Shown in pieces: positions 1,273 to 20,190 of a DNA stretch of 20,208 bases. Numbering within the stretch: the stretch's first letter is position 1; each line of letters opens with the position of its first letter. This stretch comes from a virus, in the IMG/VR virus record IMGVR_UViG_3300030451_001805, positions 1 through 20,208 of that record; one strand, 5' to 3'. The position numbers and the translations under genes are program-made. The notes under the pieces were generated by a model that had not been told where the DNA came from, did no database searches, and was given only the letters and a program-made list of their open reading frames with translations.

Positions 1273-3755
1273 ATTAATCCCCTAAGTTTGTTTTCAAGTT
1301 CTAGTAGTTTCAGATCAGCATTTTGCTTTAGTCTGTTTACCGCTACTTCAAGTTTATCATCTGCTATTTGTTTTTGCACATCAATTCTCTGTTGTTGTAT
1401 TTGGCTATCTGTCATTTTTTCTTGTGCTCTTTGTGCTTGTTTTGCTACAAACTGGTCAGATTCCATATCTAATTCTTTATCTCTCAAGTCTAACTCACGT
1501 TTTCTTATATCTACTAATGGATCATCACCCCCACCCATACCTATGGATTGTAAAAACTCACTAGCTAACTGAGCCATAATTTGTGAGCTAAACTGCTCTA
1601 TAATCATTTGTATTTGTTGTTGTATAGCAGCAGCCTCCTGTGGTGACACCTGTTGCATTTGTGCTTGTATTTGTTGTATTTGTTGTTGCATTTCTGGTGG
1701 CATCTGTTCTTGGGCAATTTGTGCTGCTAAAAATTGTAAATGTTGCATGCAGTGACTAATAATTAACGCTTGCACCTGTGGACTTTCTTTGACTATTTGC
1801 GTTAAAAATAAACTTTTATGCGCCTCTAAATGTGCTTGGTGGTTTTGTTCTGGAAAAGCCTGTGCTGGTTGACCTAGTAATAAACCAGCGTTTTCTTGCC
1901 CTGCATCTACTGGTTTTGGTGTCATGTCTGGTGGAGGTTGTAACAAAGAATCCACATTATCTACACCTAAAGCGGCATACATGCGTTTATAGGCCTCATA
2001 TATACCCATAGGACCATGTATTTCTGGATTTGATTGCACCATTTGCAACAATTCTTGTGCTAACGTAACTCTTTGACTTTGCGAAAATATATTAGGATCC
2101 GACACTGGAATGATGTCAACACGATCATCAAAGTCTATTTGTTTTACCTCTTGCGGGCCAGAGCCAACTTGATAATTGTAAACTGGTGGCAAATATTCAC
2201 TAAAAACCTTTGCAAGCAACCCAAACTCTATTCTTTGTGCGTAATGCAATCTTTTGTGTATCGCACTCATAACTTTTGTGCCACGTTCTAGTAAAGCAAC
2301 AGTTGTCCCAACAGGCATAGCTGCGTTCATATCACCTACATTCATATCTGCTATAGCGGCGAATCTTTTACCAGAATCGACCAAGATGCCTAAAAGCTGC
2401 ATAAGTACATTGCTTGGTTCTTTAATAGGAAGAGGTATTAAGTTTTCTCGCAAAGATCCGCCTGTAGTATCAATATCTCTAAATTCACCTGGTTGTAAAG
2501 GATCATCTTCGTCCCTTATACGCATGCCTCTAGCTTTAAAACCAGCTGGTAAGTTTGCTAATGTGCCTGCATCTATTAGTTGTCTTAATATGCTAGTGCT
2601 TGCCTTTGACAATCCACCAATCATGTGTGACAGGCCAAGTCCATAGAAACCTAAGCCAGGTAAAAATTTGTATTGAACAAAATAATTGATTTTATTTTTA
2701 AGTAAATCGTTTTCTCTAAAGTTTCTTCTAATTGATAATATTTTTTGAGAGTCCTCTTCTATTGTCACAATGTATGGTAGTTTTAAACCTGTAGGCATGC
2801 CTTTTTGATCTAAATCCTCAAAACCCTCAATATCTAACACCGTATGTACCTCATATACGGTTCTATTTCTATTTTCTTTATAAGTTGGTGATATGCCCTG
2901 TATATCATCTATAGCCTCAGTAATATCATCTAAATCTTCGCTATAACTACCGCTACCTATATCTACGTTAGCGTAGAATCCAGTCACTTGTTGTTTTTTT
3001 ATTTCATTTGCAGACATGCTGATTGAGTGTGTGATTCTCTCTGCTGAACTAATGTCAGTCGCCTCATAAGGCACTATCAGATCCTCTGGTGCTATAAACT
3101 TGGCTACTGCTCTATTTAAAACAAAATCAAAATATACTTTTTTAAAACAAGAACCAGCCAAAGGTAAGTAAAATAACATTTGATCTAATTCTGGGTCGTA
3201 TTCGTCCATTTCGTTCATAATGTAATAATTCATAAACTCTTGAACGCGCTCTGCTTGATCTTCGGTTTGTATAGTTCTAGCACCAACGATTTCTGTTTTA
3301 ACAGGTCCTTTTGCTGGTAACATTTCTTTATATGCTTGTGCTTGGAACTGAGTTACAGCCTCAGCTAAGATTGGGTGCACGACACCAGAGCTACCTTCAA
3401 AAGGTTGTGATCTCGTATCGTCAAACTTCATACCTAAATATTTTAGTCCGTCGGTATAAGTTTTTTCCCACTCAGATCTAGACTCTTTATCGCTTTGTAT
3501 TGAGTCTAGTAAATCGTTTGATATTTTTTCCAATGTGTTTTGGTTTATGAAATCAACCAAGTTTGCATCAAAACTCATTTGTGGTTGAGCTGGCGCAACT
3601 ATTTCATCATCCAAGAAAACTTGTTCGTCGTCTACTAAAACCTGCGCAGCTGCCTGTATTTGTTCGTCTCTTGTAGTGTCTGGAACTATATTGACAGCAG
3701 ATCCTTGTACTTTTACATCTGGGTCATTTTCTGTTCCTAATTTTTCTATAGCCAT
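1269..3755 (-). CDS. Portal protein
   Basis: 828 residues. The N-terminal 80 residues are acidic and low complexity. The central part (roughly residues 95-600) resembles the portal proteins of marine podovirus- and siphovirus-type phages. It has an early RSEWEKTYTDGLKYLGM-type helix, an FEGSSGVVHPILAEA segment, and a long run of alternating helix and strand typical of the twelve-subunit ring through which DNA enters. Residues from about 690 are very Gln-rich (repeated QQ/IQQIQ) and lead to a charged coiled-coil C-terminus, so the gene looks like a portal core plus an extended crown or tail. It lies directly downstream of terminase and a 63-residue gene, the usual packaging order. The start ATG is two bases after the preceding stop. 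Confidence 0.85.
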   Translation of the reverse strand: MAIEKLGTENDPDVKVQGSAVNIVPDTTRDEQIQAAAQVLVDDEQVFLDDEIVAPAQPQMSFDANLVDFINQNTLEKISNDLLDSIQSDKESRSEWEKTYTDGLKYLGMKFDDTRSQPFEGSSGVVHPILAEAVTQFQAQAYKEMLPAKGPVKTEIVGARTIQTEDQAERVQEFMNYYIMNEMDEYDPELDQMLFYLPLAGSCFKKVYFDFVLNRAVAKFIAPEDLIVPYEATDISSAERITHSISMSANEIKKQQVTGFYANVDIGSGSYSEDLDDITEAIDDIQGISPTYKENRNRTVYEVHTVLDIEGFEDLDQKGMPTGLKLPYIVTIEEDSQKILSIRRNFRENDLLKNKINYFVQYKFLPGLGFYGLGLSHMIGGLSKASTSILRQLIDAGTLANLPAGFKARGMRIRDEDDPLQPGEFRDIDTTGGSLRENLIPLPIKEPSNVLMQLLGILVDSGKRFAAIADMNVGDMNAAMPVGTTVALLERGTKVMSAIHKRLHYAQRIEFGLLAKVFSEYLPPVYNYQVGSGPQEVKQIDFDDRVDIIPVSDPNIFSQSQRVTLAQELLQMVQSNPEIHGPMGIYEAYKRMYAALGVDNVDSLLQPPPDMTPKPVDAGQENAGLLLGQPAQAFPEQNHQAHLEAHKSLFLTQIVKESPQVQALIISHCMQHLQFLAAQIAQEQMPPEMQQQIQQIQAQMQQVSPQEAAAIQQQIQMIIEQFSSQIMAQLASEFLQSIGMGGGDDPLVDIRKRELDLRDKELDMESDQFVAKQAQRAQEKMTDSQIQQQRIDVQKQIADDKLEVAVNRLKQNADLKLLELENKLRGLI

Positions 3756-3949: not shown

Positions 3950-5448
3950 TAATATACTGTTCTGTTCTTTTTTAATAATTTAACCTCGTCTTGATAATCT
4001 TCGTAAAGAGATATAAAACCACCTTGTCTAAATCTCATCAAAGCCATTGTAGCACTATCGCAGTAGTCGTCATAATCACCGAATGGAAACGATGCCATTT
4101 CTTCGATTACTTCCTCTGCAAAATCATCTTCTGGTGCCCACACCATGCCAGATTCAAATATAGGTGCAACACTATTCATACGTGCTACTTTGTCTTGTCC
4201 TCTGCTAGGTGAATAAGATGTAACAGGTATACCCATACGTCTGAGTTCATGTGTCAAGGGTGTGCCAGATGCTTTAGCCTCTATCAAAACACAATCTGGT
4301 TCCCAGTATCTATACTCTTCTAATGCGAGTTTTTTAAGCTCTGGAAAGTCGCATCTAACTCTTTTTGCATCTAATAATATAATTTCATCATTATTTTCAT
4401 CACCCCTATTAAATATTGCCCAAGTGGTAATTGCAGAGTAGTCAGCAGTTTCTTTTTTTGAAAAAGCTGTATCGTAACTTTGTATAACATAACTGTAAGC
4501 TGGCACATCTTCATCCTCCCAACGATTCCACCACTCTCTTTTAACTATAGAACCTTCCTCTGCTGTTGGGTTTTGCATCCATTGACTGTTCCATTTTGAT
4601 ATTGGTAAAGATGCTTTTACGCCTAACAATTCATCTTTTTTCCAAAACTCTGGCCATAAAGGTTTTTCACTGTCTGGCATGATTGCAGGAAACTCTACTA
4701 ACTCCCATTGATCTGCATTTTCATCGCCTTGTTTGTTTAAAACCTTGCCAACCAAATCCTTTGTGCTCCACCTAGTCATTACTATCACAATTATCCCACC
4801 AGGTTGTAAACGTTGACGTGGGCCAGATGTGTACCACTCGTAAGCTGATTCTAAGGCTTTTGGTGACAAAGCATCTTGTTCTGAGTGTGGATCATCAATA
4901 ATTAGTAAATCTGCACCACGACCTGTAATAGCACCACCTACACCAGCTGCAAAGAACTCACCATCTTGGTTGCTAGTCCAACGTCCAGCTGATTTGTTGT
5001 CAGCTTGTAATTTAAGATCTGGAAATATATGTTGATATTCTTCGCTGTCAATAATATTTCTTACTTTACGACCAAACCTCACTGCTAACTCAGCCGTGTG
5101 TGTAGTTTGTATAATTTTGAGATTGCCTCTTCTACCCATCATCCATGCAGGAAAAAAAGTTGATGCAAACTCAGACTTGGAGTGTCTAGGTGGCAAACAG
5201 ACAATCAATCTTTTTAGTTTGCCGTCTGCTATTTTATTAAATTTATCAGATATTATTTTATGATGTCTGCCCTCAATAAACTCTGGCCACATGTGTTTTA
5301 TAAAACCCATAAAATCTTTTTGACAACCATCTTGTTTTTCAAGTTGATCGTATCTTTGTAACAGAGCTACTGCCTCAGCTTTATCTTGCTCAGATAATAT
5401 ATCAAAATCTTTAAATGATACGTCGCTCATAGGCGAGCTGAGAAACAA
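3946..5448 (-). CDS. terL: Terminase large subunit
   Basis: 500 residues from TTG 5448, or 494 from ATG 5430; neither start has a good Shine-Dalgarno sequence, and I favour ATG 5430. The motor pumps DNA into the procapsid and the nuclease cuts the concatemer. The ATPase shows a Walker A variant LPPRHSKSE (about residues 85-93) and Walker B LLIIDDP (181-187). The C-terminal RNase H-like nuclease has Asp in SYDTAF (about 326), Glu in VLIEAKASG (about 390) and Asp residues in DYDDYCD (about 459-464). No small terminase gene was recognised in the window. It begins a packaging/head block after a 67-base gap, the longest clean intergenic space here, so it may have its own promoter. Confidence 0.96.
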   Translation of the reverse strand: MFLSSPMSDVSFKDFDILSEQDKAEAVALLQRYDQLEKQDGCQKDFMGFIKHMWPEFIEGRHHKIISDKFNKIADGKLKRLIVCLPPRHSKSEFASTFFPAWMMGRRGNLKIIQTTHTAELAVRFGRKVRNIIDSEEYQHIFPDLKLQADNKSAGRWTSNQDGEFFAAGVGGAITGRGADLLIIDDPHSEQDALSPKALESAYEWYTSGPRQRLQPGGIIVIVMTRWSTKDLVGKVLNKQGDENADQWELVEFPAIMPDSEKPLWPEFWKKDELLGVKASLPISKWNSQWMQNPTAEEGSIVKREWWNRWEDEDVPAYSYVIQSYDTAFSKKETADYSAITTWAIFNRGDENNDEIILLDAKRVRCDFPELKKLALEEYRYWEPDCVLIEAKASGTPLTHELRRMGIPVTSYSPSRGQDKVARMNSVAPIFESGMVWAPEDDFAEEVIEEMASFPFGDYDDYCDSATMALMRFRQGGFISLYEDYQDEVKLLKKNRTVYY

Positions 5449-6395: not shown

Positions 6396-6868
6396 TAGTC
6401 ATCGCCTTTATGTGACGCTCCAAAGTAAAAAGATATAATCGCGCTAGCCAAGCCACCTAAGTATCCTAATACTAAATTTATAAGTGCCTCACTGTTTTGC
6501 TCTGGTGGTTGTAGTGTTACTAAGAATATATAGCCTAAAAATCCAGCTATTGTTGCAACACCAATTATTCTAGCTGTCCAATCTTTACTAAACATACCTC
6601 TAGCGTTTTGCTTGTCTTGAGTTTCTAATCTGAAAACATCAACATCCAGCTCTTTCATTTGCACCTCAAACTCTTGTTCTGCTTTTTTAAGCTCTAACAT
6701 TTGTTCTGGTGTTGCATTTTGTATAGCTTGTTGAATTGATTTTTGGTCATTTGATACGCCTAGTACGCTTGCAATTTTAGACATTGCCATATTACCCATT
6801 GGACCACCAAGCGCTGTGCCTATGGTTGGAGCTACCGCACCTACTAAATTTTTTAATAATCCTTTCAT
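6395..6868 (-). CDS. Holin-like membrane protein
   Basis: 157 residues. An N-terminal Gly/Ala/Met-rich amphipathic stretch (1-40) is followed by a charged helix (about 41-95) and two predicted membrane helices (about 99-119 and 129-150), with a short charged C-terminus SHKGDD. This layout resembles the GTA/phage 3TM-type holin family, with FSKDWTARIIG just before the first helix. It would permeabilise the inner membrane to release the lysozyme encoded two genes downstream. The start overlaps the adenylate cyclase stop by four bases (ATGA), so it is cotranslated with the curli-like module. Assignment rests on topology and neighbourhood rather than a diagnostic motif. Confidence 0.7.
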   Translation of the reverse strand: MKGLLKNLVGAVAPTIGTALGGPMGNMAMSKIASVLGVSNDQKSIQQAIQNATPEQMLELKKAEQEFEVQMKELDVDVFRLETQDKQNARGMFSKDWTARIIGVATIAGFLGYIFLVTLQPPEQNSEALINLVLGYLGGLASAIISFYFGASHKGDD

Positions 6869-8622
6869 ATAGATTCCTTTACTGTATATATGTTAAGTTT
6901 CTTTTTTTTACCCTTAACATTAATAGGTTTTAGTGATTTTAATGCAAATTTGCAATTTTTTGCAATATTTTCACCAATAAGTATATCAACACCAACCTCT
7001 TTTGTTGCTGACTCTAGCCTTGCTGCTGTATTTACAGGATCGCCTATAGCTGAATAATCAAACCTAGATTCAGACCCCATATTTCCAATACATGCGAAAC
7101 CAGCTTGAGTCCCTACGCCCACTGCAACTGGAGTAGAAAGTGTTTTGTTTAGTTCAGCTATGCCTTTTTGTATATCTATTGCAGCCTGAACGGCTTTTGT
7201 TTCGTGATCCTCCAAATCTAAAGGTGCTCCAAAAATAAACATACCTGCATCACCAATAAATTTATCTGTCATACCACCTAATTTTTGCACGGCATTTACT
7301 TGCACAGTTAACGTCTTGTTCATAATATCAGTTACTTCTTCTGGAGATAGTTTTTCTGATAAAGCAGTAAATCCTCTTAAATCTGTAAAAAGAAACGAAC
7401 AATATTTTTTTTCTCCACCAAGTTTTAATAAACTTGGATTATCTTGTAATTGTTTTACTTGTCGTGGATCTAAATAATGTTCAAATTGTTTTTTAATTTG
7501 TTGTCTTAGTTTGTATTGCTCTCTAAACCTAACGTAAAAAATAGCGCTACCTTGTATAAACTCTGATACAAAAGTCCAAGAAAAATCAACAAGATAACCA
7601 GTTTTTATAATATAAACACCGCTTATAAAGGTTGCGGCCATGAATAAACCGCCAAATATAAGTGATTGTGTCATACCTGCATAACCAAAAATAATTGAAA
7701 CTATTATTAAGCACGAAGCAAACATAATTAATTCAGCTGCTATAGCCCAATCTGGGATATAAGGTGAGTCTTGTATAAGTATTGATTCTGCAAGTGCTGC
7801 TTGCACTTCATGAGGCGAAAGTAAGCCAACGGGGGTTGCAACGGTCGGAAACACGCCTGGAGCATTGACAGAAACAAAGACAAATCTATGGGCAACATTG
7901 AGTTCCTGTAAATTTGTTTGTGGTGTGTCCACCCAAGAGATCCATTTGCGGCCTAGATTGTCTACATCAACGGGAGGTAAGCCTTGTACAGTAATCTGTC
8001 GCATACCATTATCATCGCCTTTTATAATGTAGGTTTTTGCACCAGCTAATACTTTTAAAACTTCCGTTCCAAAAGATGCAACAAAACCATCTGGTGTTTG
8101 CATGAGTAAAGGCATGCGCCTTACAAGATTATCTATTTCAGTGGGAGCCGTAGACAAACCTTGAGGAACATCTATGAATATTGGGTCGTTTGCAACAACT
8201 CCCTTTGCCATAATACCATTAATATTTTCACCAAGTAAAACTGTTCCGCTTGTTGGTGGGTATGTACCGTTATCATATTCAAACATCGTTAAGATGCTTG
8301 GACTATAATCTAAGGCCATTAAAAACATTTCATCGCCACCAAAACGATCTGGATTTGGTAAAGATATTACCCAACCAACACCTATAGCGCCTGCCTCTAA
8401 AATATCCATGTGTATTTGTGCTAACTCTTGTCTTGGAAAAGGCCAGCCACCAGATTTTTGAATATCCTCTTGCGTGATGTTTAGCACTACAAAATTACCA
8501 CTTGGATCGTATTTTTTAACAAAAGTATCGAAAGTTTGTAATTTTAATATTTGCAAAGGGTATAACTGAAACAACAGTGGTAAGGCAAGTATTATAAATA
8601 CTATGAATATTACTTTTTTCAT
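6865..8622 (-). CDS. CHASE2-domain membrane adenylate/guanylate cyclase
   Basis: 585 residues. An N-terminal signal-anchor helix (3-24) precedes an extracytoplasmic CHASE2-like sensor domain (about 30-285; ITQEDIQKSGGWPFPR near 49-64 matches the CHASE2 W-P-[WF]-x-R signature). Several membrane helices follow (about 289-370), then a short linker and a class III cyclase domain (about 402-585). The catalytic set is intact: metal-binding Asp414 (FTDLRGF) and Asp458 (FIGDAG), purine-selecting Lys454 (DKF) and Asp528 (AIGDPVN), and transition-state Asn531 and Arg535 (NTAARLE). The Lys/Asp pair predicts ATP to cAMP. It would sense something outside the inner membrane and raise cAMP in the infected cell. 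It overlaps FecR-like and holin-like genes by four bases at each end. CHASE2 cyclases are familiar in bacteria, but one inside a phage late operon is unusual. Confidence 0.93.
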   Translation of the reverse strand: MKKVIFIVFIILALPLLFQLYPLQILKLQTFDTFVKKYDPSGNFVVLNITQEDIQKSGGWPFPRQELAQIHMDILEAGAIGVGWVISLPNPDRFGGDEMFLMALDYSPSILTMFEYDNGTYPPTSGTVLLGENINGIMAKGVVANDPIFIDVPQGLSTAPTEIDNLVRRMPLLMQTPDGFVASFGTEVLKVLAGAKTYIIKGDDNGMRQITVQGLPPVDVDNLGRKWISWVDTPQTNLQELNVAHRFVFVSVNAPGVFPTVATPVGLLSPHEVQAALAESILIQDSPYIPDWAIAAELIMFASCLIIVSIIFGYAGMTQSLIFGGLFMAATFISGVYIIKTGYLVDFSWTFVSEFIQGSAIFYVRFREQYKLRQQIKKQFEHYLDPRQVKQLQDNPSLLKLGGEKKYCSFLFTDLRGFTALSEKLSPEEVTDIMNKTLTVQVNAVQKLGGMTDKFIGDAGMFIFGAPLDLEDHETKAVQAAIDIQKGIAELNKTLSTPVAVGVGTQAGFACIGNMGSESRFDYSAIGDPVNTAARLESATKEVGVDILIGENIAKNCKFALKSLKPINVKGKKKKLNIYTVKESI

Positions 8623-9740
8623 CCAGAGCTTTGCGTTATGTTGATTGTTGAGTCAGCCGTGCCATTGACTTGTATCACCTTAGAAACTCCATCTTGCGTA
8701 AATATTATGTTGTATGCTTGATCGCTGTTTACCAAAACCTGCGCTCTTTGATTTACCATACGCATAAATTTTATTTGACTACCTTGTATTATAGTTGTTA
8801 CCTGTGTTTCTACATCTTGTCCAAAGTTTGTTCCGACTAATTGAATTCCACTTGAAAAATCTGCTAGATTATCCTCGTCTTTTACATCAAGCTCATCTAG
8901 AACATCAAGTAAATCTTCTAACAGATTTACGTTGAGTAAGTCAATGTCGAGCTCTGAAAAGTCAATATTATCTTCTTCATCCCAAATATCCTCATCTGAT
9001 AAAAAATCTATATCTAAATCAGTAAACTCTAAGTAATCCGCTTGTTCTGTTTGTGTTTCTTCATTTTCTACAAGTTGTTCTTTGGGTGGTGAAACAATAA
9101 GCATGTTATCTATAAAGTTTAAATCTATGTCTAAGGTTACTGGTTTTGTTGGCGCAACGTCATAAGCAGAAGTTGTTGTTGCTTGAAATGGTTTATTTAG
9201 CACTTGTTGTCCCATAGCTGTTTGCACCACTATTTCGCCACTTGCGTCTCCAAACTCGTTTGGTAATAAAATTATTAATGATTTACCAGTAATATCGATA
9301 GTGCAAACAAAATCTGTACCTTGCACAAAAATCTGAGAGCTAGGAGTAGATAAGGTGATGTTTTTTTTGTTAAGTTTATTTACATTACCGCTAATAAACC
9401 GAATGGTGCCGCTAGCAAACTGAAGAGCCATTTTAGATTTATCTGGGTTGGGATCATAAATATATTCATCAATAAGAAGTTCAGAGTGTTCAGTAAGTTT
9501 TACCGTGGACTCATCAAGAAATGTAATAGCTATTCGACCTGCGCTAGTTTGCACATTGTCCAAAGAGTTTATGTCAAAGTCTAAGGTCGCGTCATACGGC
9601 TCATCGCGATAGACTCTACCGTAACCTGTTAATTCTGTTATATCACCTATAGAATCAGCATGAAGTGGTGGTACCACCGTCATTTTGAATAATACAGATA
9701 TTAGAATTACTTGTATTTGCAATAACTTGTAACCAATCAC
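8619..9740 (-). CDS. Exported FecR-domain protein
   Basis: 373 residues. Residues 1-29 look like a signal peptide (Lys5, hydrophobic core about 6-18, possible cleavage after LHA). Residues about 55-175 carry a FecR-type beta domain: VQTSAGRIAITFLDESTVKL-like strands, a GTIRFISG strand, and LSTPSSQIFVQGTDF, the characteristic TP-x-[AS]-x-[IV]-x-V-x-GT core. A highly acidic Asp/Glu/Leu stretch spans 222-295, followed by a C-terminal beta region. FecR domains are periplasmic sensor or surface-anchor modules. In bacteria, FecR-domain proteins are often neighbours of CHASE2 cyclases, as here. No ECF sigma factor is nearby, so classical FecIR signalling is unlikely. The signal-peptide start forces an 86-base overlap with the curlin-like gene; the alternative ATG 9683 would lose the signal. 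Confidence 0.85.
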   Translation of the reverse strand: MIGYKLLQIQVILISVLFKMTVVPPLHADSIGDITELTGYGRVYRDEPYDATLDFDINSLDNVQTSAGRIAITFLDESTVKLTEHSELLIDEYIYDPNPDKSKMALQFASGTIRFISGNVNKLNKKNITLSTPSSQIFVQGTDFVCTIDITGKSLIILLPNEFGDASGEIVVQTAMGQQVLNKPFQATTTSAYDVAPTKPVTLDIDLNFIDNMLIVSPPKEQLVENEETQTEQADYLEFTDLDIDFLSDEDIWDEEDNIDFSELDIDLLNVNLLEDLLDVLDELDVKDEDNLADFSSGIQLVGTNFGQDVETQVTTIIQGSQIKFMRMVNQRAQVLVNSDQAYNIIFTQDGVSKVIQVNGTADSTINITQSSG

Positions 9741-10383
9741 GTGCTAATGTAGATGCCTGGGTAATGTTCATAGTGTTGCTGCTACCGTCAAGATCTAAAT
9801 TAAAGTATGCCGAGGTCGCCGCCGTGTTACCGCTATAACCACTACCTGTAAAATTAATAGTATTTGAACTACCGTTTATATCCATATAGTTGGTTGCGTT
9901 TTCATAGTCAATGTCAAAATCTAACTCATTACTATCACCCAGTATTATCCAATCTAAATTAAGATAGGAAGAGTTAGCGTTTTCACCTATTTTTATATCA
10001 GCCTCGTTACTTGAGCCTGTTACATCTATATTTAGATCAACATAGTCAGCAGTAATTAAGCCAGTAGAGTTCATCAAAACATCCCAAACGTTGCTATCGC
10101 CATCAAACTCAAAGAAACCTGTAAAGTTATCACCGTCTATAGCATCGGATCTAAATATATTGCTTGATCCGATTTGATTGATGTCTAATGCCATGGTTGT
10201 ACCGTCTAGGTCAAGAGCAGTCATGGTACCAGATACCGCAGATGTGCCACCAATAAGGTTTGATGATCCTAACTGTTCAAGATCAATAGTAGCGTTTGAA
10301 CCGCTTTGATCTACGTAGATTTCATTGTCCGCAAAAATTGAAAGTGAGAAAAAAAGTAAAAATAAATATTTATTCATTTGCAT
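9655..10383 (-). CDS. Curlin-like secreted repeat protein
   Basis: 242 residues. Residues 1-18 form a clear signal peptide (Lys5, hydrophobic 6-17, cleavage after IFA). The mature part repeats a motif ending in G-[SD]-S-N about every 22-33 residues: Asn30, 42, 75, 98, 126, 152, 174, 203 and 228. Each is flanked by alternating-hydrophobic strands and often preceded by LDLDG, FEFDG or MDING turns. VDQSGSN, LEQLGSSN and INQIGSSN recall the curlin consensus (Gln-x-Gly-x-x-Asn). It is much more acidic than CsgA and largely lacks the second Gln. The C-terminus has two Cys (230, 242). It lies directly after csgG, overlapping it by 14 bases, so it is the likely substrate of that pore. ATG 10377 (Met3) is an equally possible start. 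Confidence 0.82.
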   Translation of the reverse strand: MQMNKYLFLLFFSLSIFADNEIYVDQSGSNATIDLEQLGSSNLIGGTSAVSGTMTALDLDGTTMALDINQIGSSNIFRSDAIDGDNFTGFFEFDGDSNVWDVLMNSTGLITADYVDLNIDVTGSSNEADIKIGENANSSYLNLDWIILGDSNELDFDIDYENATNYMDINGSSNTINFTGSGYSGNTAATSAYFNLDLDGSSNTMNITQASTLARDWLQVIANTSNSNICIIQNDGGTTTSC

Positions 10384-11215
10384 ATTGCCAAAAATTTCGT
10401 TCGCGACCTTGTTTGATAATATCTACAATACCAATTTCTATAGCCGATTGCAAAGCGATAGACTTACTTTCATTCATGGCATTTCCTGTTTCAAATTCTA
10501 CTAACTCTGTATCGTTTGAATGAAACCTAAATACGTCAGATGATAAGCCGACTGATAAAATTGTTCTTGTTGTAAGATTTTCTAACAATATTTCACCAGT
10601 GCTTACAGATACAACACGTATTGAAACAAGCACTGTATCTTCACGATACTGTTTGCTGGCGCCGACGCCTAAATATCTGGCGCCTGCACCGCCGCTAGTA
10701 AGGTTAGTATTATAATCGACAATACCTCCTTCTATAATAACGCCAGCAAACAACAGGGGAAGTTGTTTTGTTTCATCTTCAAACTTTTCTCTAGTTGATC
10801 TAATAATCTGCCTTTCACGTGTGATGTGATCGATACCGCCTCGCTCTACTACGCGAAAAAAACCAGATTGTTTTAATGCTCTAATTAAATAAACCTCTGG
10901 TGCTTGTGTCATGGCTGTGCTGAAATTAGCGTAGCCATCCACAGATTTTCTTTGACCTGTGTAATCTGCAAACTTATATACTGCTGCCACTGGTTGTACT
11001 TCGGGTACGGGTATTTCTTGTATTTCTTTAGTAATAGGTTCGTTTATAAAAGCGTCTTTAGAAAAACACTTAGCCTTACTTACTATTGATACGACATCTT
11101 TATAATCACCCTCTGGGTTTGTAAGACATGGAGAAATTAGTTTGGTGTGCGAAACGCAACTAGCTACCAAACCCAAAGTCGCCAATAGGAATGGTAATCT
11201 CAGTAGTTGTTTCAT
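10370..11215 (-). CDS. csgG: CsgG-family curli secretion pore lipoprotein
   Basis: 281 residues. A lipoprotein signal ends in the lipobox VASC (Cys20). CsgG forms a nine-subunit, 36-strand outer-membrane pore for curli subunits. Family landmarks are clear: AVYKFADYTGQRK (78-90), the constriction-loop region ANFSTAMTQ (96-104), ERGGIDHITRERQIIRS (124-140), GGAGARYLGVG (175-185) followed by RVVSVSTGEIL (200-210), and VFRF near 228-231. Asn97 and Phe98 match the pore-lining Asn55/Phe56 of E. coli CsgG. The Tyr51 position seems displaced, with a Tyr at 95. The segment between the lipid Cys and the core is about 20 residues longer than in E. coli, with extra Cys30 and Cys50. The start lies inside csgF (56-base overlap), because the lipobox needs it. 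Confidence 0.95.
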   Translation of the reverse strand: MKQLLRLPFLLATLGLVASCVSHTKLISPCLTNPEGDYKDVVSIVSKAKCFSKDAFINEPITKEIQEIPVPEVQPVAAVYKFADYTGQRKSVDGYANFSTAMTQAPEVYLIRALKQSGFFRVVERGGIDHITRERQIIRSTREKFEDETKQLPLLFAGVIIEGGIVDYNTNLTSGGAGARYLGVGASKQYREDTVLVSIRVVSVSTGEILLENLTTRTILSVGLSSDVFRFHSNDTELVEFETGNAMNESKSIALQSAIEIGIVDIIKQGRERNFWQYANE

Positions 11216-11705
11216 CTAGCGTGTTATAGATAGTTAGGGTTATGTAAGTCCCGTCGCTGGACCAACTAATGATGTTGTCAAATAATGTAAAAGATCCTGT
11301 GGTTGATGGATTCTCGCCAAAAAGTTGCTCTACTATTTGTCTGGAAATTTGTGCAAAAATCCGTGACTCGAGATTACGAGTAAATCTGCTTATCACAGAA
11401 TTTTCCTCATCACGTTTTCTTTGTTCTTCTAGGGCCTTGAGATCTGCCTTTAGTTGCTCACGTCTTGAAAACTCTTGTTGTTCGATGGTCAAATAATGTG
11501 CACTCTGTCCAATGCCAGAAAAACTTGGAGATTTGAAGTGAAATTTAATCTCATCTGAATTAACGTTTTGTGCAAGGATTAAAGCAAACATAATAAAACC
11601 AATAAAAAAAGCCCATACGGCTATTCGTGTTTTTTCTATTTCTTCTTGTTTTTTAATCTTTTCTTTGGTCATTCCTGTCTGCCTTTGCAATTTTGTTACT
11701 GTCAA
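11160..11705 (-). CDS. csgF: CsgF-like curli assembly factor
   Basis: 181 residues from ATG 11705, or 170 from ATG 11672. A charged N-terminus (Lys/Glu) precedes a membrane helix (about 28-46). Residues 53-64, IKFHFKSPSFSG, match the CsgF N-terminus (T-F-x-F-x-N-P-x-F-x-G) that plugs into the CsgG constriction. A helical middle (about 70-130), charged and longer than in E. coli CsgF, ends in RNLESRIFAQISRQIVEQLFG like the CsgF helix. The C-terminal beta part (138-174) ends TTTEITIPIG, like CsgF's T-S-T-I-Q-V. In E. coli CsgF caps the pore on the cell surface and helps nucleate fibres. The long charged stretch before the hydrophobic helix is odd for a signal peptide and could be a membrane anchor. 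Confidence 0.85.
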   Translation of the reverse strand: MTVTKLQRQTGMTKEKIKKQEEIEKTRIAVWAFFIGFIMFALILAQNVNSDEIKFHFKSPSFSGIGQSAHYLTIEQQEFSRREQLKADLKALEEQRKRDEENSVISRFTRNLESRIFAQISRQIVEQLFGENPSTTGSFTLFDNIISWSSDGTYITLTIYNTLDETTTEITIPIGDFGFGS

Positions 11706-13327: not shown

Positions 13328-13675
13328 TTACTCGCTTAATGTTTTAGTAACACTTGTTGGTGATACTTTTTTAGCTATCTGTGCATCTAATGATGTTTTC
13401 ATAGCAGTAACAGTATCAGAACCCATAGCTGTTTCTACCCAACCCTGTACGTCACTAGATTTTAAACTTGACCAGTTAATAAAACTAGACAGATCATCTG
13501 TGCTAACAGCTTGTGAGCCGTATGTCTCAGCAGTCCAGTTATTACCGTCACTATCTTTATTAGTATCGTCTGTTGCAGTAAGCCTCCAATGAACAGTATG
13601 CACTACATTAGATTTACCACTTTTTGAGGGATATGTATCGCATGTTTTACAATCCCAAGTATATCCTATTGCCAT
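13328..13675 (-). CDS. Tail-associated small protein, paralogue A
   Basis: 115 residues. An N-terminal beta region (YTWDCKTCDTYPS... VHTVHWRLTATD) precedes a helical C-terminal part with FINWSSLKSSDVQGWVETAMGSDTV. This last pattern (F-I-x-[WY]-x-S-L-x-x-x-x-V-x-G-W-[IV]-x-T-x-[LM]-G-S-D) recurs in the gene at 13770-14144, so the two are paralogues. CKTC near residue 9-12 is unique to this copy. Proteins of this kind lie after tail-fibre genes in many marine phages. A role in fibre assembly or as a fibre-tip component is inferred. AAGGAG lies seven bases before the ATG. Confidence 0.7.
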   Translation of the reverse strand: MAIGYTWDCKTCDTYPSKSGKSNVVHTVHWRLTATDDTNKDSDGNNWTAETYGSQAVSTDDLSSFINWSSLKSSDVQGWVETAMGSDTVTAMKTSLDAQIAKKVSPTSVTKTLSE

Positions 13676-13769: not shown

Positions 13770-14144
13770 TTAAAAAGGTAAAGCAGGTGTAGATTCTGTT
13801 GTATATATTCCATCAACATAACTTCCTCTTGCATCTGGATATTCTGTTTTAGTATCTGACATAAATCTTGTATATTCATTATTTACTAAAGTTTCCCACC
13901 AAGTAACACAATCTGAACCTAATGTTGTTTTAATCCATCCAACAATAGTAGCTTCATCTAATGATTCATAAGCTATAAATGATGCTGACGGGTCATAAGA
14001 AACTTCTGTATGTTGTATTACAGTTCTAGTATAAATACTATTTTCATCAATTTTATCTAAATACCATTCTATTTTAGTAACAACATTTTCTACACTACCT
14101 ATTGTTTTTGTGTGTAATTTACTTACTTTCCATTCTATTGCCAT
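13770..14144 (-). CDS. Tail-associated small protein, paralogue B
   Basis: 124 residues of the same layout as the gene at 13328-13675. An N-terminal beta part (IEWKVSKLHT... VVTKIEWYLDKID) is followed by FIAYESLDEATIVGWIKTTLGSDCV, then a longer Tyr/Thr/Asp-rich tail (YTRFMSDTKTEYPDARGSYVDGIYT). AGGAGT, inside the end of the tail-fibre gene, lies about ten bases before the ATG. It follows the fibre gene directly, so it probably acts in fibre assembly or decoration; that is inferred from position. Confidence 0.7.
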   Translation of the reverse strand: MAIEWKVSKLHTKTIGSVENVVTKIEWYLDKIDENSIYTRTVIQHTEVSYDPSASFIAYESLDEATIVGWIKTTLGSDCVTWWETLVNNEYTRFMSDTKTEYPDARGSYVDGIYTTESTPALPF

Positions 14145-16899: not shown

Positions 16900-17484
16900 T
16901 TATGCCGCGTCTCTACCTGCGTTTATTGTAGTATAGTTTGGAGATTGCGTTGTCGCAACCTCTGAGTATCCAGCAGTTTGGTTAGTAGAAACTTCCGCGT
17001 AACTGGGTGTTTGATCTGTATCTATCAAACCATAGACTAAAATAAATCCTGGTGAGGCCGTAGCGCTAACTCCAGATAGCGTGACTATAGCAGCAGCTTG
17101 TGTAGTTACGTCCGCGACTGAGGCTGTAGCTGACAGTCCTGTTAAATTAATAACCTCATTTTCGTGAACGATTACTGATCCAAGTGCAGAGGTGGTAACA
17201 AGTGTGCCGACGCTGACATTTGCTTTTGCAACAGTGGTCGGTGTGCCTAATGCAGATGTGGCTGCTTGTCCTGTTACATTTACGACGGCTCCAGCGACAA
17301 CACTTACAGACCCTAGCGCAGAAGTTGTAACTAATGTAGCTGGTGTGACATTTGCTTTTGCTACAACGCTTACAGATCCAAGACCAGAGGTAACTACGCC
17401 AACAGTAGAGAGATTTACAGGTAATGCAGAACCCCACGCACCTTCGTCCCAGGCACCTCGACCCCAGCCGTTAATATTAGCCAT
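16900..17484 (-). CDS. Repeat-rich tail structural protein
   Basis: 194 residues. A conserved-looking start MANINGWGRGAWDEGAWG precedes five consecutive 22-residue units (residues 33-142), beginning [SA]ALGSVSVV-like and ending LVTT or AAT/SAT. Units 1 and 3 (AKANV...LVTT) resemble each other, and units 2, 4 and 5 (VVN[VL]TG...AT) resemble each other. Three 11-residue units then follow at the C-terminus (157-189; pattern x-Q-[TS]-[PA]-x-Y-x-[ET]-[VI]-x-[TA]). Val/Thr/Ala-rich beta repeats fit a fibre or tail-surface protein. The start overlaps the 46-residue gene's stop (TAATG). No enzymatic motif is seen. Confidence 0.75.
   Translation of the reverse strand: MANINGWGRGAWDEGAWGSALPVNLSTVGVVTSGLGSVSVVAKANVTPATLVTTSALGSVSVVAGAVVNVTGQAATSALGTPTTVAKANVSVGTLVTTSALGSVIVHENEVINLTGLSATASVADVTTQAAAIVTLSGVSATASPGFILVYGLIDTDQTPSYAEVSTNQTAGYSEVATTQSPNYTTINAGRDAA
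16918..17016 (-). repeat. Three 33-base (11-residue) tandem repeats
   Basis: Residues 157-167, 168-178 and 179-189 of the tail protein align without gaps: DQTPSYAEVST, NQTAGYSEVAT, TQSPNYTTINA. The repetition is clear in protein and degenerate in DNA. Confidence 0.7.
17059..17388 (-). repeat. Five 66-base (22-residue) tandem repeats
   Basis: Residues 33-142 divide into five 22-residue units with no gaps. At DNA level the most similar stretches are the two copies of gacatttgcttttgc (near 17215 and 17347). A two-unit (132-base) higher-order period is suggested by the alternation of unit types. Confidence 0.75.
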
Positions 17485-17624
17485 TAGCTTAAATTATCTC
17501 TTACTTCTTCAAGTAACGTCTTGATTGATGTGAGGTCTGCTCGCACAGGATCCGTCATAAAATCAAGCAAAAGCATAGAATCAATCGTGGCTATAACGCT
17601 AATTATTTTATCTTTATCGCTCAT
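17484..17624 (-). CDS. 46-residue protein upstream of tail protein
   Basis: ATG 17624 to TAA 17486-17484; the product MSDKDKIISVIATIDSMLLL continues through DFMTDPVRADLTSIKTLLEEV to VRDNLS. It is short, helical and amphipathic, with no named family. A GAGGAAG sequence lies 11 bases upstream. It ends in a TAATG overlap with the next gene and starts seven bases after the end of the 579-residue gene, so it fits the operon spacing and fills an otherwise empty 146-base gap. Confidence 0.65.
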   Translation of the reverse strand: MSDKDKIISVIATIDSMLLLDFMTDPVRADLTSIKTLLEEVRDNLS

Positions 17625-17630
17625 AATTTG

Positions 17631-19370
17631 TTATTCTTCCTCAAATATATTTAGTGTGTTTGGGTTGTAGTTTTTTGTAAATTTGTGTAAACTGGTATTG
17701 ATGGAAACTTTAGAGACATTATATTTTTCTTGGGAGCGATCACCAGCTGTCATTGTTGATGTCACTCCAGAAAAAAGCGCTGGATTCATATTGCCAGTCA
17801 CAGAGATTGAGCTTGGTTGGAGAGAGGCTACGCCAGACCAAGTAAAAGATTTCTTTGTTGACGGCTCTAGATTATCAAAGTCCGAGTTTGAAAACATGTT
17901 CGGTGTCATTGGCGACAATCTGCCAGACTTACCAGCACTTACATAACCGCCAGAAAAAAACCTTTCTACAACATCTTTAAAAAACTCTGGATCTATGTCT
18001 TTGCCCGCTGCCTCAAATATTTCTTGCATAGTTTTTTCTAACCTTAGGCCCTCTGCTTTTATTTTTTTGATGTCAGTGCCGTCGGGTAATCCAAAATTAG
18101 TTTTTCTATACGCCTCATAAAAACCGTGTGCTTTATCTGCTGCGTCTAGCATAGGCTGAGTCACTATACCTATTTCACCTATAATTGTTTCGCCGTTTGG
18201 TCCTGTAACCTGAACGTTAAGTTTTCTATCTAAGTAACCAGATTTTTTCATCAATACTCGTTCGCCGTCTACCGTTGGAAATAATTTAGCTATGGCCTCT
18301 GCCGCTTGTTTTTCTTGTTGCGGTGTATTTACCACAATTCTTGTTCGTATTGGATCTGTTATTTGTGAGAAGTCACCATCATATTTGGTCATAACTTTTT
18401 CAATCGTACGTGGCATAAGTTTCACTTCGCCTACAGGAAAGCCAGTGGCCTCATCTATTCGTCCGATTTTTTTGCCGCCCACGGGATTAAATCCTTTGCC
18501 TAAATTTAAACTTTCACGCACGCCGTCAATGGCGCTTTGAAATTGTGGATTTAGTCTTAAGGCTCTATCAAAGAGTTGCTCTGCACTTGTTATGTCGCCT
18601 TGGTGTGCATTAAAAGTAAATTTAAACTGTTGCTCCATTTTATTACCAAGTTGTCTTACAGGTGACTCAAAGGTGGGATTGCCTAAGGTTGGTAATAGTT
18701 TCGACGCATCTGCTTGTCGTTTTACGTTTTTATTTCTTTTTCTAATAAAGTCAAAAGTATTGTATTCTTGTAGGCTATCAAAAATTTTCACGGGTATTTT
18801 TGTGGTTCCAGCCGATTCAAGAGCATCTAATGTTGCCTTACCTCCAAGTTGCTCAAACGTACCATCTGGTTTTTTTAACACCTCTATTGGCTGTCTTTTT
18901 TCGACTGTTACTCCCTTATAAGAAGATCCGCTCGCTGATTTTTCTAATAGTTTTTTAGCCTCATCTAGACGTTTTGCCTCTGTTTTTACAGGTTGGCCCT
19001 CTATATCCTTTGGCTTGGTTATGTTTTTAGAATCAACCACAGCATCGGCTTGCTTGGTGTCTATGCCCTTTAACAAAGATTTAGGTCCTCTAAGTAAATC
19101 ACCTATCAGAGGTATTGCGCCTAATGCTGATAATCCAGCAATACCACCAGCTATGGCAGCTTGTTTAAATCTACCCTCTTTGATATCGCGTGCAGCGTCT
19201 CTGCCATATTTGCCCGCAGCTGCAATATCCATAGCCATGCCAGGCGGTGTGAATCCTGCTGCAATCTGTGCAACCAAGGGTACGTTCTCCTCGTAGCCTT
19301 CAACAGCAATATCTAATAGATCTTTGTCAGCTGAACCGCCTTGTTGGAATATATCAACATCTTCGTACAT
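17631..19370 (-). CDS. Large phage protein with ParB-like and RelA/SpoT-like domains
   Basis: 579 residues. Residues 30-100 are Gly/Ala/Ile-rich with hydrophobic stretches (AAIAGGIAGLSALGAIPLIGDLL), like the pre-toxin or membrane-interacting segments of polymorphic toxins. Residues about 155-200 (PIEVLKKPDGTFEQLGGKAT, then LDALESAG, IPVKIFD) resemble a ParB/sulfiredoxin-like fold. Residues about 315-425 resemble a RelA/SpoT nucleotidyltransferase. There, GDFSQITDPIRTRIVV carries Asp339 and Arg344, SGYLDRKLNV carries Tyr379, GEIGIVTQPMLDAADKAHGFYEAYR carries Glu399 and His415, matching D-x-x-x-x-R, GY, E-x-Q-x-x-T and H-x-x-Y landmarks. It might make an alarmone or pyrophosphorylate a nucleic-acid target, or be an inactive scaffold. 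A role as ejected effector or tail component is inferred from its place before fibre genes. ATG 19370 lacks a ribosome-binding site. Confidence 0.75.
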   Translation of the reverse strand: MYEDVDIFQQGGSADKDLLDIAVEGYEENVPLVAQIAAGFTPPGMAMDIAAAGKYGRDAARDIKEGRFKQAAIAGGIAGLSALGAIPLIGDLLRGPKSLLKGIDTKQADAVVDSKNITKPKDIEGQPVKTEAKRLDEAKKLLEKSASGSSYKGVTVEKRQPIEVLKKPDGTFEQLGGKATLDALESAGTTKIPVKIFDSLQEYNTFDFIRKRNKNVKRQADASKLLPTLGNPTFESPVRQLGNKMEQQFKFTFNAHQGDITSAEQLFDRALRLNPQFQSAIDGVRESLNLGKGFNPVGGKKIGRIDEATGFPVGEVKLMPRTIEKVMTKYDGDFSQITDPIRTRIVVNTPQQEKQAAEAIAKLFPTVDGERVLMKKSGYLDRKLNVQVTGPNGETIIGEIGIVTQPMLDAADKAHGFYEAYRKTNFGLPDGTDIKKIKAEGLRLEKTMQEIFEAAGKDIDPEFFKDVVERFFSGGYVSAGKSGRLSPMTPNMFSNSDFDNLEPSTKKSFTWSGVASLQPSSISVTGNMNPALFSGVTSTMTAGDRSQEKYNVSKVSINTSLHKFTKNYNPNTLNIFEEE

Positions 19371-19401: not shown

Positions 19402-20190
19402 CTATTCGTGAAGGCCTTGGAACTTACGCTTGAGTATTCTTTGCACTTTATGGAAGGGAAAGTCCTCGTAGCCTGGATGCGAACTTTGAATCTGTTTAGC
19501 TATTTTTCTCGCTCCAAGTCCCTTAGCTCTGAGTGCATAGATATGTTTTAACACTGCTTGCTCCTCTGGTATAGGCACTAACTTGGTTCTACGTCTGCTA
19601 CCAGAGTCATCGTATTGCTTTTCATAACCAAAGGGTGTTTGTCCTCCGATTGAGTAGCCTCGCTCTGCATAAACAAGTTTACCGCCGTTCAGCCTAGACA
19701 TAATCATTTCTCTCTCTATCTCAGCGAACTGAGCCATATTCGTAACAAGCTGTTGGTTAGCTATCCTAGTCATATCCATTTTTGCCTCAAGACCAGTCTT
19801 TTCTTTTTCTTTGGGTAACACCACTGGTATGTCTGCAAACATATCGCAGAAGTAAAGTGTAATACCAGTGTCCTCTAGAGTAGGAATCATGTTGACCATT
19901 TCTAAAAAGGATCTTGCAAGTCTATCTAGTTTGGTTGCTACTATCACGTCATTCGCATCCATAGTATCTGTCAGCTCTCTAGAGCCTGGTCGCTCTAATA
20001 AAGGTTTCATACCGCTAATACCAGCGTCGGTAAAAAACTGATCGACTTTGCGACCACCATATTTATTGGCTACAAACTCCTCAATCGACTTCTTTTGCTC
20101 GTCTAGTGAAGAGCCGTCTTTGACCTGTTGCTCAGATGATACTCTGATATAGCCATAGATATTGTTTACTTGTTTTCTTGGTTCAATCAT
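19402..20190 (-). CDS. Serine recombinase (resolvase/invertase family)
   Basis: 262 residues. The resolvase catalytic domain (about 10-165) shows the nucleophile Ser18 in GYIRVSSEQQ and the KLDRLARS motif (87-94), with Asp89, Arg90 and Arg93 conserved, plus QFAEIEREMIMSR on the long E helix. It forms a 5'-phosphoserine link to DNA. After a GGQTPFGYEKQ linker typical of larger serine recombinases, residues about 200-262 hold a helix-turn-helix-like DNA-binding part with LGARKIAKQI. It is larger than Gin/Hin (about 190 residues) but far smaller than phiC31-type integrases. It could integrate the phage, resolve dimers or invert DNA. No inverted repeats around the fibre genes were noticed. Confidence 0.9.
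   Translation of the reverse strand: MIEPRKQVNNIYGYIRVSSEQQVKDGSSLDEQKKSIEEFVANKYGGRKVDQFFTDAGISGMKPLLERPGSRELTDTMDANDVIVATKLDRLARSFLEMVNMIPTLEDTGITLYFCDMFADIPVVLPKEKEKTGLEAKMDMTRIANQQLVTNMAQFAEIEREMIMSRLNGGKLVYAERGYSIGGQTPFGYEKQYDDSGSRRRTKLVPIPEEQAVLKHIYALRAKGLGARKIAKQIQSSHPGYEDFPFHKVQRILKRKFQGLHE

Follow-up and report, generated by a model that had tools for sequence, protein, structure and literature searches.

Does a marine phage gene for a predicted alarmone synthetase also carry, on its opposite strand, the gene for a protein that holds the synthetase in check? The question is raised by a locus in a 20,208-nt stretch of DNA (IMG/VR record IMGVR_UViG_3300030451_001805, positions 1-20,208; hereafter the window) from an HTVC023P-like marine podovirus, whose portal protein is 49% identical to that of HTVC023P. 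Here, a long minus-strand open reading frame (ORF), which we call the cargo ORF, is predicted to combine a RelA/SpoT fold with other domains, and a small gene runs antisense through the codons of its C-terminal tail. We consider it probable that the two constitute a swappable effector/immunity cassette of HTVC023P-like marine podoviruses, with the immunity gene lying antisense inside the effector gene.

Predicted fold and active site of the cargo protein

A sequence-only reading of the locus had proposed a RelA/SpoT-like nucleotidyltransferase together with a ParB-like segment, and all the Rel motifs that it quoted are present in the cargo ORF. Its fold assignment was confirmed by structure prediction, in which AlphaFold2 models were compared with the Protein Data Bank (PDB) using Foldseek and the structural aligner VIA, and by a Rel family profile (A7) built on 31 aligned sequences reaching down to 30% identity with the window protein. 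Foldseek placed Tas1 first (6ox6_A, expectation value (E) 4.9e-6, prob 1.00), followed by other SYNTH-fold enzymes. VIA gave Z 11.7-13.2 to small alarmone synthetases over amino acids (aa) ~260-470, and over aa ~260-467 the exported alarmone synthetase 8vx3 scored Z 13.2 and Tas1 12.6. The profile matched the GTP pyrophosphokinases 2be3 (E 1.4e-6) and 3l9d (4.9e-6), B. subtilis YjbM (E 8.8e-5) and Tas1 (E 0.016). In the cargo model, 10-residue blocks mostly had a predicted local distance difference test score (pLDDT) of 79-96 between aa ~101 and ~460; confidence dipped near aa 291-310, 371-380 and 421-440, and was 27-37 in the last ~110 residues.

The ParB-like segment also held at the level of predicted fold, with VIA Z scores of 8-9.3 to Noc, ParB, sulfiredoxin (Srx) and SbnI over aa ~106-216. 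These models indicate that the cargo protein contains both a RelA/SpoT (SYNTH) fold and a ParB/sulfiredoxin-like fold, the latter missing from 21 of the 31 aligned Rel proteins. The active-site arginine of ParB is placed in a GERR-type loop. Neither the loop of the window protein (GGKAT) nor those of its relatives (GGKST, GGGSS, AGKSS) has this arginine, a conserved active-site arginine being named for DdrB-like ParB domains (PMC5512222).

Searches with curated families bore out the earlier prediction in part. PF04607 (RelA_SpoT) matched aa 316-415 at 16.7 bits (E 0.0091), below its curated cut-off of 27 bits, which is a threshold and no biological feature, and PF02195 was not among the seven Pfam families listed. 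Limiting the search to the window record and one relative gave 20.3 bits (E 9.0e-6), and the best score seen, 20.6 bits in a relative (contig G001), was still under the cut-off. For some Rel relatives (labelled L with a number) PF04607 gave no match: L030 (at E 0.1), L043 (at E 1) and the contig of L010, G003 (at E 10). NCBIfam returned no family for the window protein or L002, and PHROGs none for the window protein.

Asp339 and Glu399, singled out in the sequence-only reading as key residues, are invariant in all 31 aligned sequences, as are, among others, K317, K325, R342, R344, G378, R382 and H415; D339, E399, K317, K325 and R344 align to the D, E, K, K and R of YjbM. Such invariance down to 30% identity makes it very improbable that the Rel domain is purely structural and catalytically dead, a reading with which the divergent acceptor motifs, the Pfam score below cut-off and the relatives unmatched by Pfam would agree. 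At the acceptor site, the cargo protein has RTR at syn2, DRK (or KLN if two residues are inserted) at syn3 and IV at syn4. The published signatures are SxH at syn3 and IR at syn4 for RSH (p)ppGpp synthetases, and RYT, GxN and YH at syn2-syn4 for the Apk adenosine 3'-pyrophosphokinases (PMC12226406). The aligned cargo residues do not match the RSH signature; with that of Apk they share no more than the first R and, in one of the possible alignments, the N. With neither SxH nor GxN, these residues do not support (p)ppGpp as the product.

A swappable site beside a serine recombinase

Searches of viral contigs with the full protein, its Rel part and a first profile recovered only three other phages. 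The N-terminal module as query returned 41 loci, three of them on contigs of those same phages. ORFs of these loci share the pattern '..DIDIF..GYEENVPL..GFTPPGM..KYGRDA..' on differing bodies: a ParB-like domain plus Rel, Rel alone, Rel with an extra insert (a sub-threshold Pfam match to ART-PolyVal in L051, without a match in L030), or a P-loop kinase of the zeta-toxin type. Rel is present in 26 complete loci and zeta in nine; a contig end truncates L044 and L058, short fragments represent L061, L062 and L064, and L063 is a stub. The zeta toxin family PF06414 scored 58.7 bits in L035 and 61.3 bits in L057, the two kinases of this type that were scanned, against a cut-off of 22.3, and the zeta relatives carry the P-loop IGPPAAGKS. 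The hallmark of polymorphic toxins is thus found here, in that one N-terminal part (aa 1-105 of the cargo protein) is joined to different toxin domains, RelA/SpoT or zeta.

The borders of the site are conserved. A serine recombinase gene is present in all 41 loci and lies 33-86 nt from the cargo gene in 39 of them, the exceptions being L034, with a PBECR5-bearing gene between the two, and L044, where the ORF is open-ended. On the other side, the six loci without a gene of the 194-aa type (Table 1) are cut near or before its position. L063 (488-643) looks like an empty cassette site, its N-terminal module ending after 51 aa with the conserved downstream gene 140 nt further on. The cargo gene therefore sits at a swappable site between a serine recombinase and a conserved downstream gene. 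One further pattern match, L016, was rejected as a relative as no listed ORF at its site encodes Rel.

The effector or toxin role envisaged in the sequence-only reading finds indirect support in the zeta-toxin domain joined to the same N-terminal module in other phages (Pfam E 7e-16 and 1.1e-16) and in same-tag proteins of these phages that carry PBECR5 (L034, L064) or ART-PolyVal (L048) domains, both scoring above cut-off. Beyond these loci, a tblastn search of 50,697 phage records, HTVC023P included, with the full protein gave no match at E 0.01; partial matches of the Rel part in the phage collection (E 0.5 and 2) were treated as chance, and no relative of the cargo protein was found among GTDB genome contigs.

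The zeta genes at the site are followed, in divergent phages, by an ORF of 61-63 aa that overlaps them on the same strand in a shifted frame (MEKSTQPQGL...FDY..EE; L035 4467-4652, L055 9064-9249, L059 1734-1922, L054 1362-1553). In its 3' half, nonsynonymous change is lower than synonymous change in all pairs, only moderately so. This ORF is a candidate partner of the zeta kinase. Six of eight other large cargo genes inspected meet a small opposite-strand ORF tail-to-tail, with 0-47 nt of overlap (L022 7420-7692, L047 6002-6253, L064 3119-3358, L006 3315-3587, L043 2811-3035, L048 3064-3288); these small ORFs may be partners dedicated to the cargo genes, or may close a convergent operon.

A gene antisense to the cargo tail

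The antisense gene overlaps the last ~100 codons of the cargo ORF. Like the swapping of toxin domains, it did not figure in the sequence-only reading, and these two features are the more informative ones. By tblastn it is present in the window and in all 26 complete Rel loci found with the N-terminal module, and in none of the nine complete zeta loci. Sense and antisense wobble positions coincide, so that open antisense frames are cheap, and for this reason an internal conservation control was used, with normalised BLOSUM scores computed for 193 divergent pairs from 21 sequences (six near-duplicates of 27 having been left out). Over the tail (aa 474-556), the antisense frame was better conserved than the sense frame in 185 of the 193 pairs; in six upstream regions it was better in 0, 0, 1, 0, 0 and 2. 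It was better in 12 of 72 pairs across the variable region aa 100-180, and in 53 of 193 across aa 556-579, beyond the antisense start. When the two readings were aligned separately, the antisense reading was better conserved in 153 of 156 pairs, with the start residue mis-set for L043, L046 and L048.

A scan with a profile of the antisense protein identified 41 loci, partly in the same phages as the set above, and every one of them carries Rel opposite. Rel was recognized by a motif test in 35 and by ORF reading in L083, L096, L098, L102, L104 and L105, with alignment also confirming all of these six but L083. Forty of the 41 antisense genes overlap the Rel ORF. The copy in L083 abuts it: Rel ends at 4233 and the antisense gene (3998-4231) meets it tail-to-tail with no overlap. 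Here, the ratio of nonsynonymous to synonymous change (dN/dS) was 0.09-0.29 in six of seven comparisons, the seventh, against the window, being saturated.

The stretch before the antisense start codon provides a further line of evidence, reading GTAAATTTTTGTAAACTAGGG or near in most loci, with a perfect TGTATAAT in L048. Cargo codons in this stretch have a synonymous identity of 0.982, the highest of 350 codon windows (mean 0.506, sd 0.133), as an embedded promoter would produce. The antisense gene may accordingly have its own promoter inside cargo codons. The antisense protein itself, modelled by AlphaFold2 from 16 sequences, reached pLDDT 78.9 with a predicted template modelling score (pTM) of 0.64, the sense tail standing near 30.

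A rival reading, in which the antisense ORF is no gene but a consequence of codon constraint on the sense strand and the tail is a low-complexity end of the effector, is on this evidence extremely improbable: the conservation control, the non-overlapping copy in L083, the pre-start element, the predicted fold and the disorder of the sense tail all oppose it. It would accord with the frequency of long open antisense frames in the cargo gene and with a stop-free reading that is not rare under synonymous shuffling. Shuffling of this kind was tried as proof of the gene and was not conclusive, and the control, L083 and the pre-start element were used instead; openness of the sense frame given the antisense protein was the rarer outcome (P 0.007-0.17 in 20 of 21 sequences, 0.82 in L046). 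The existence of the antisense gene is well supported.

In databases, the consensus of the antisense protein had no match to the phage collection at E 1, and two antisense proteins had none in PHROGs or Pfam. The single genome match of the profile, in a Nitrospira metagenome-assembled genome (L106), was rejected as chance; it lies antisense to an ORF that by sequence reading resembles M16 peptidases, beside a masked stretch, with no Rel-like ORF in the part inspected.

A candidate Tis1-like partner

What might the antisense protein do? The first PDB match of its model by Foldseek was Tis1 (6ox6_B), at weak scores (E 1.0, prob 0.47, template modelling (TM) score 0.46/0.48). With VIA, 6ox6_B again came first (Z 4.3 over 61 of 76 residues) and shared this score with the unrelated transporter domain 3puy_F. 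This match gains weight because the Rel protein of the opposite strand independently picks the other chain of the same complex, 6ox6_A. In a viral fold library, the first match was the unnamed A0A977KMG2 (E 0.018, TM 0.56/0.61). According to the accessible text of PMC11782079, Tis1-type domains inhibit toxSAS that make (pp)pApp by occluding the acceptor site, and tRNA-modifying toxSAS are held by zinc-finger-like domains. A Tis1-like partner would thus point to (p)ppApp as the product.

The N-terminal module and possible delivery

Delivery of the effector in the virion is suggested by the shared, tagged N-terminal module and by published analogues, namely MuF toxins and polyvalent proteins. 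No trafficking family was found for the window protein in scans of Pfam, PHROGs or NCBIfam, and Pfam gave no MuF match to it at E up to 10. Among 518 redundant proteins, DIDIF-type motifs were N-terminal in 37 cases, C-terminal in 13 and in the middle in 10, compared with 0.20, 0.20 and 3.15 after shuffling. All but one of the terminal occurrences fall in one mosaic similarity network of 53 proteins; independent enrichment is therefore not claimed, and the motif was dropped as an independent packaging signal. In 50-kb stretches of the isolates L011-L013, a DIDIF-type motif occurs once, in mid-protein. In L048, three different large proteins (505-1668, 1668-3110 and 6554-8332) all begin MNLDD[IV]DIF, possibly a shared targeting tag.

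Weighing the proposed cassette

Several observations count against an effector/immunity cassette. The sigma-70 scan, which also demands a -35 box, lists no promoter at the antisense start, and no clear Shine-Dalgarno sequence was flagged among 15 antisense starts tested. Long antisense ORFs in this frame are common within the cargo gene, and by shuffling an open antisense frame is nothing unusual for the given sense protein (P 0.04-0.45). The overlap itself enforces much of the linkage between Rel and partner; only L083 is free of it, and there the sense frame opposite the antisense gene is also open (101 codons) although it lies outside Rel. Because many loci are closely related, locus counts are not independent, and the DIDIF tag is no independent evidence for several families. 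The Tis1 match alone is weak, and the sequence profile of the antisense protein (A6) has no Tis1 among its five PDB matches, up to E 10. Finally, neither of the published classes, RSH and Apk, accommodates the residues at the acceptor site, so that the substrate could be new.

An intracellular role has also to be considered, as a toxin-antitoxin pair or in superinfection exclusion. Both proteins would then act in the infected or lysogenised cell, the effector would never be packaged, and imbalance between the two would arrest the host or block competing phages. Effector and partner each have a promoter-like box near the start codon, a serine recombinase adjoins the cargo gene, and toxSAS are placed among toxin-antitoxin and anti-phage systems (PMC11559606, PMC11782079). 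The TATAAT box is found before the cargo ATG in all eight loci inspected as well; promoter-like sites around the cargo gene are no more numerous in the sigma-70 scan than in shuffles. A plain toxin of a toxin-antitoxin pair would have no need of a ~100-aa tagged module common to other large effector-domain proteins of these phages, and we regard an exclusively intracellular role as possible and rather unlikely.

Under the effector/immunity reading, the minus-strand gene would encode a phage effector of several domains, with a RelA/SpoT-fold pyrophosphokinase as its catalytic part. The effector most likely moves pyrophosphate from ATP onto an adenine nucleotide to yield (p)ppApp, a product that we infer from the best fold match, Tas1, together with the published rule for Tis1-type domains and (pp)pApp makers. 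(p)ppApp would halt growth of the cell that receives or makes the effector. The antisense protein probably acts in the manner of Tis1, binding the synthetase and blocking its acceptor site. For delivery, the weakest step, the DIDIF-tagged N-terminal module probably directs the effector to the virion or cell envelope. Recombination between the conserved flanks would swap the whole effector/partner pair, for example for a zeta kinase and a different small ORF. We lean slightly towards the fuller proposal that an antitoxin or immunity gene is nested wholly antisense in its own toxin gene with its own promoter, and that the cassette is exchanged as a unit under a common delivery module, as RelA/SpoT with a Tis1-like partner or as a zeta kinase with a frame-shifted overlapping partner.

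Features of the locus and neighbouring genes

Table 1. Coordinates in the window of the cargo gene, the antisense gene and the borders of the site
Feature	Position	Strand	Remarks
194-aa GWGRG...DEGAWG protein, conserved right border	16900..17484	-	tblastn match in 35 of 41 loci
46-aa ORF, conserved right border	17484..17624	-	similar 45-47 aa ORFs after zeta genes
Cargo ORF: N-terminal module, ParB-like domain, RelA/SpoT-fold domain (predicted), disordered tail ending LNIFEEE	17631..19370	-	579 aa
C-terminal tail, predicted disordered, aa 469-579; overlaps antisense gene	17634..17966	-	AlphaFold2 blocks at pLDDT 27-37 from aa 471
Promoter-like element before antisense start (TGTAAACT at 17686-17693)	17673..17693	+	cargo codons 560-566
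Antisense gene, 81 aa, candidate Tis1-like immunity/antitoxin protein	17701..17946	+	opposite the disordered tail of the cargo protein
Predicted RelA/SpoT (SYNTH) fold, aa 260-466	17973..18593	-	profile, Foldseek, VIA
Catalytic codon E399	18174-18176	-	within RelA/SpoT domain
Catalytic codon D339	18354-18356	-	within RelA/SpoT domain
Predicted ParB/sulfiredoxin-like fold, aa 106-216; loop GGKATL	18723..19055	-	VIA Z up to 9.3 to Noc 7ol9
Terminal 'DVDIF' tag and shared N-terminal module (GFTPPGM...KYGRDA), aa 1-105	19056..19370	-	low AlphaFold2 confidence
TATAAT box directly upstream of cargo start codon	19377..19382	-	sigma-70 scan, 10/12 together with TAGATA
Serine recombinase (Resolvase domain), left border of swappable site	19402..20190	-	Pfam E 8.4e-26

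Elsewhere in the window, genes for a CHASE2-adenylate/guanylate cyclase (6865-8622), FecR (8619-9740), CsgG (10370-11215) and CsgF (11160-11705) make up the set described as a viral type VIII secretion cluster of HTVC023P-type pelagiphages (PMC9599517). The cyclase gene and other possible host-modulating genes lend some credit to host takeover, in which the Rel domain would retune transcription in the infected host or its nucleotide pool, with the antisense protein serving as a timing regulator and not for immunity; alarmone-like reprogramming has indeed been proposed by the authors on polyvalent proteins (PMC5512222). The occupation of the same site by a zeta-toxin kinase points to toxicity rather than to one metabolic need, and we consider host takeover improbable. 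The window further carries two adjacent DUF7936 genes, both above the Pfam cut-off (13328-13675 and 13770-14144), and a GroES-like co-chaperonin (380-820), which the annotations of HTVC023P, DSL-LC04 and CRP-902 also list close to the portal gene.

Upstream of the Rel locus in L006 lies a gene for a 531-aa protein (1719-3314) with a PHROG match to 'ParB C-terminal domain' (E 3.2e-27); a 90-aa opposite-strand ORF begins one base after its stop. In light of the PHROGs assignment, a first guess that it might be an ADP-ribosyltransferase was dropped.

Relation to known systems

One of the closest parallels is the type VI secretion pair Tas1/Tis1 of Pseudomonas aeruginosa (PDB 6ox6; Tas1 is also named Apk1, and Tis1 is its immunity protein), which likewise joins a RelA/SpoT-fold effector to a small partner and whose chains A and B are the best matches of the respective models. 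The present cassette differs in being phage-encoded, with no PAAR or other type VI secretion part in the Pfam scan, and in having its partner antisense inside the effector ORF; moreover, the cargo residues at syn2-syn4 depart from the published Apk signature and the similarity of the partner is weak. The MuF-Apk2 polymorphic toxins of temperate phages (PMC12226406, PMC5576092), as described in the accessible text, also combine a shared N-terminal part, a RelA/SpoT-fold toxin domain and partner genes. Unlike them, the cargo protein lacks a MuF domain, and where the Apk2 partner genes iapK and aph1 follow the toxin gene (PMC12226406), the partner here is nested antisense.

Polyvalent proteins of the phage type that bear RelA/SpoT and DdrB-ParB domains (PMC5512222) show a comparable multidomain mix of ParB-like, RelA/SpoT, ART-PolyVal and PBECR domains. 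What distinguishes the present case is a single swappable site beside a recombinase and a dedicated antisense partner; no Tis1-like partner appears in the accessible part of PMC5512222. In common with toxSAS (FaRel, FaRel2, PhRel, CapRel), the cassette would pair a RelA/SpoT-fold toxin with a dedicated inhibitor, FaRel being inhibited by a Tis1-like domain (PMC11782079); in contrast to toxSAS, its effector is large and multidomain and its partner is encoded on the opposite strand. HTVC023P-type pelagiphages share the curli-FecR-adenylate cyclase genes of the published cluster, and the words 'toxin' and 'ppGpp' are absent from the main text of the paper describing them (PMC9599517).

RelA/SpoT domains in phage polyvalent proteins and MuF toxins have already been published (PMC5512222, PMC3482391, PMC12226406, PMC12691689, PMC5576092). 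A zeta-toxin homologue, read as toxin-antitoxin, has been reported as one gene of one environmental marine viral genome (PMC5332604), and zeta toxins in marine phages are therefore not new. In the literature searched, which was mostly open-access and covered chiefly through search listings, we found neither a protein immunity gene nested antisense in its own toxin gene nor such an effector in pelagiphages. Taken singly, RelA/SpoT-fold toxins, Tis1-type inhibitors and phage polymorphic toxins are known; it is the antisense-nested inhibitor gene that is unusual.

Antisense nesting would keep the pair inseparable, with neither gene easily lost or recombined away alone. It would provide a clear case of opposite-strand coding frames under measurable selection, together with ready test pairs. 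Surveys that search the strand of the toxin for immunity genes would overlook such pairs; the toxin-immunity neighbourhood rule given in PMC3482391 is, in the text available, of the same-strand kind. The findings suggest an exchangeable toxin arsenal in phages akin to the widespread HTVC023P type, and they make the delivery of a growth-arresting alarmone synthetase by a podovirus a directly testable question.

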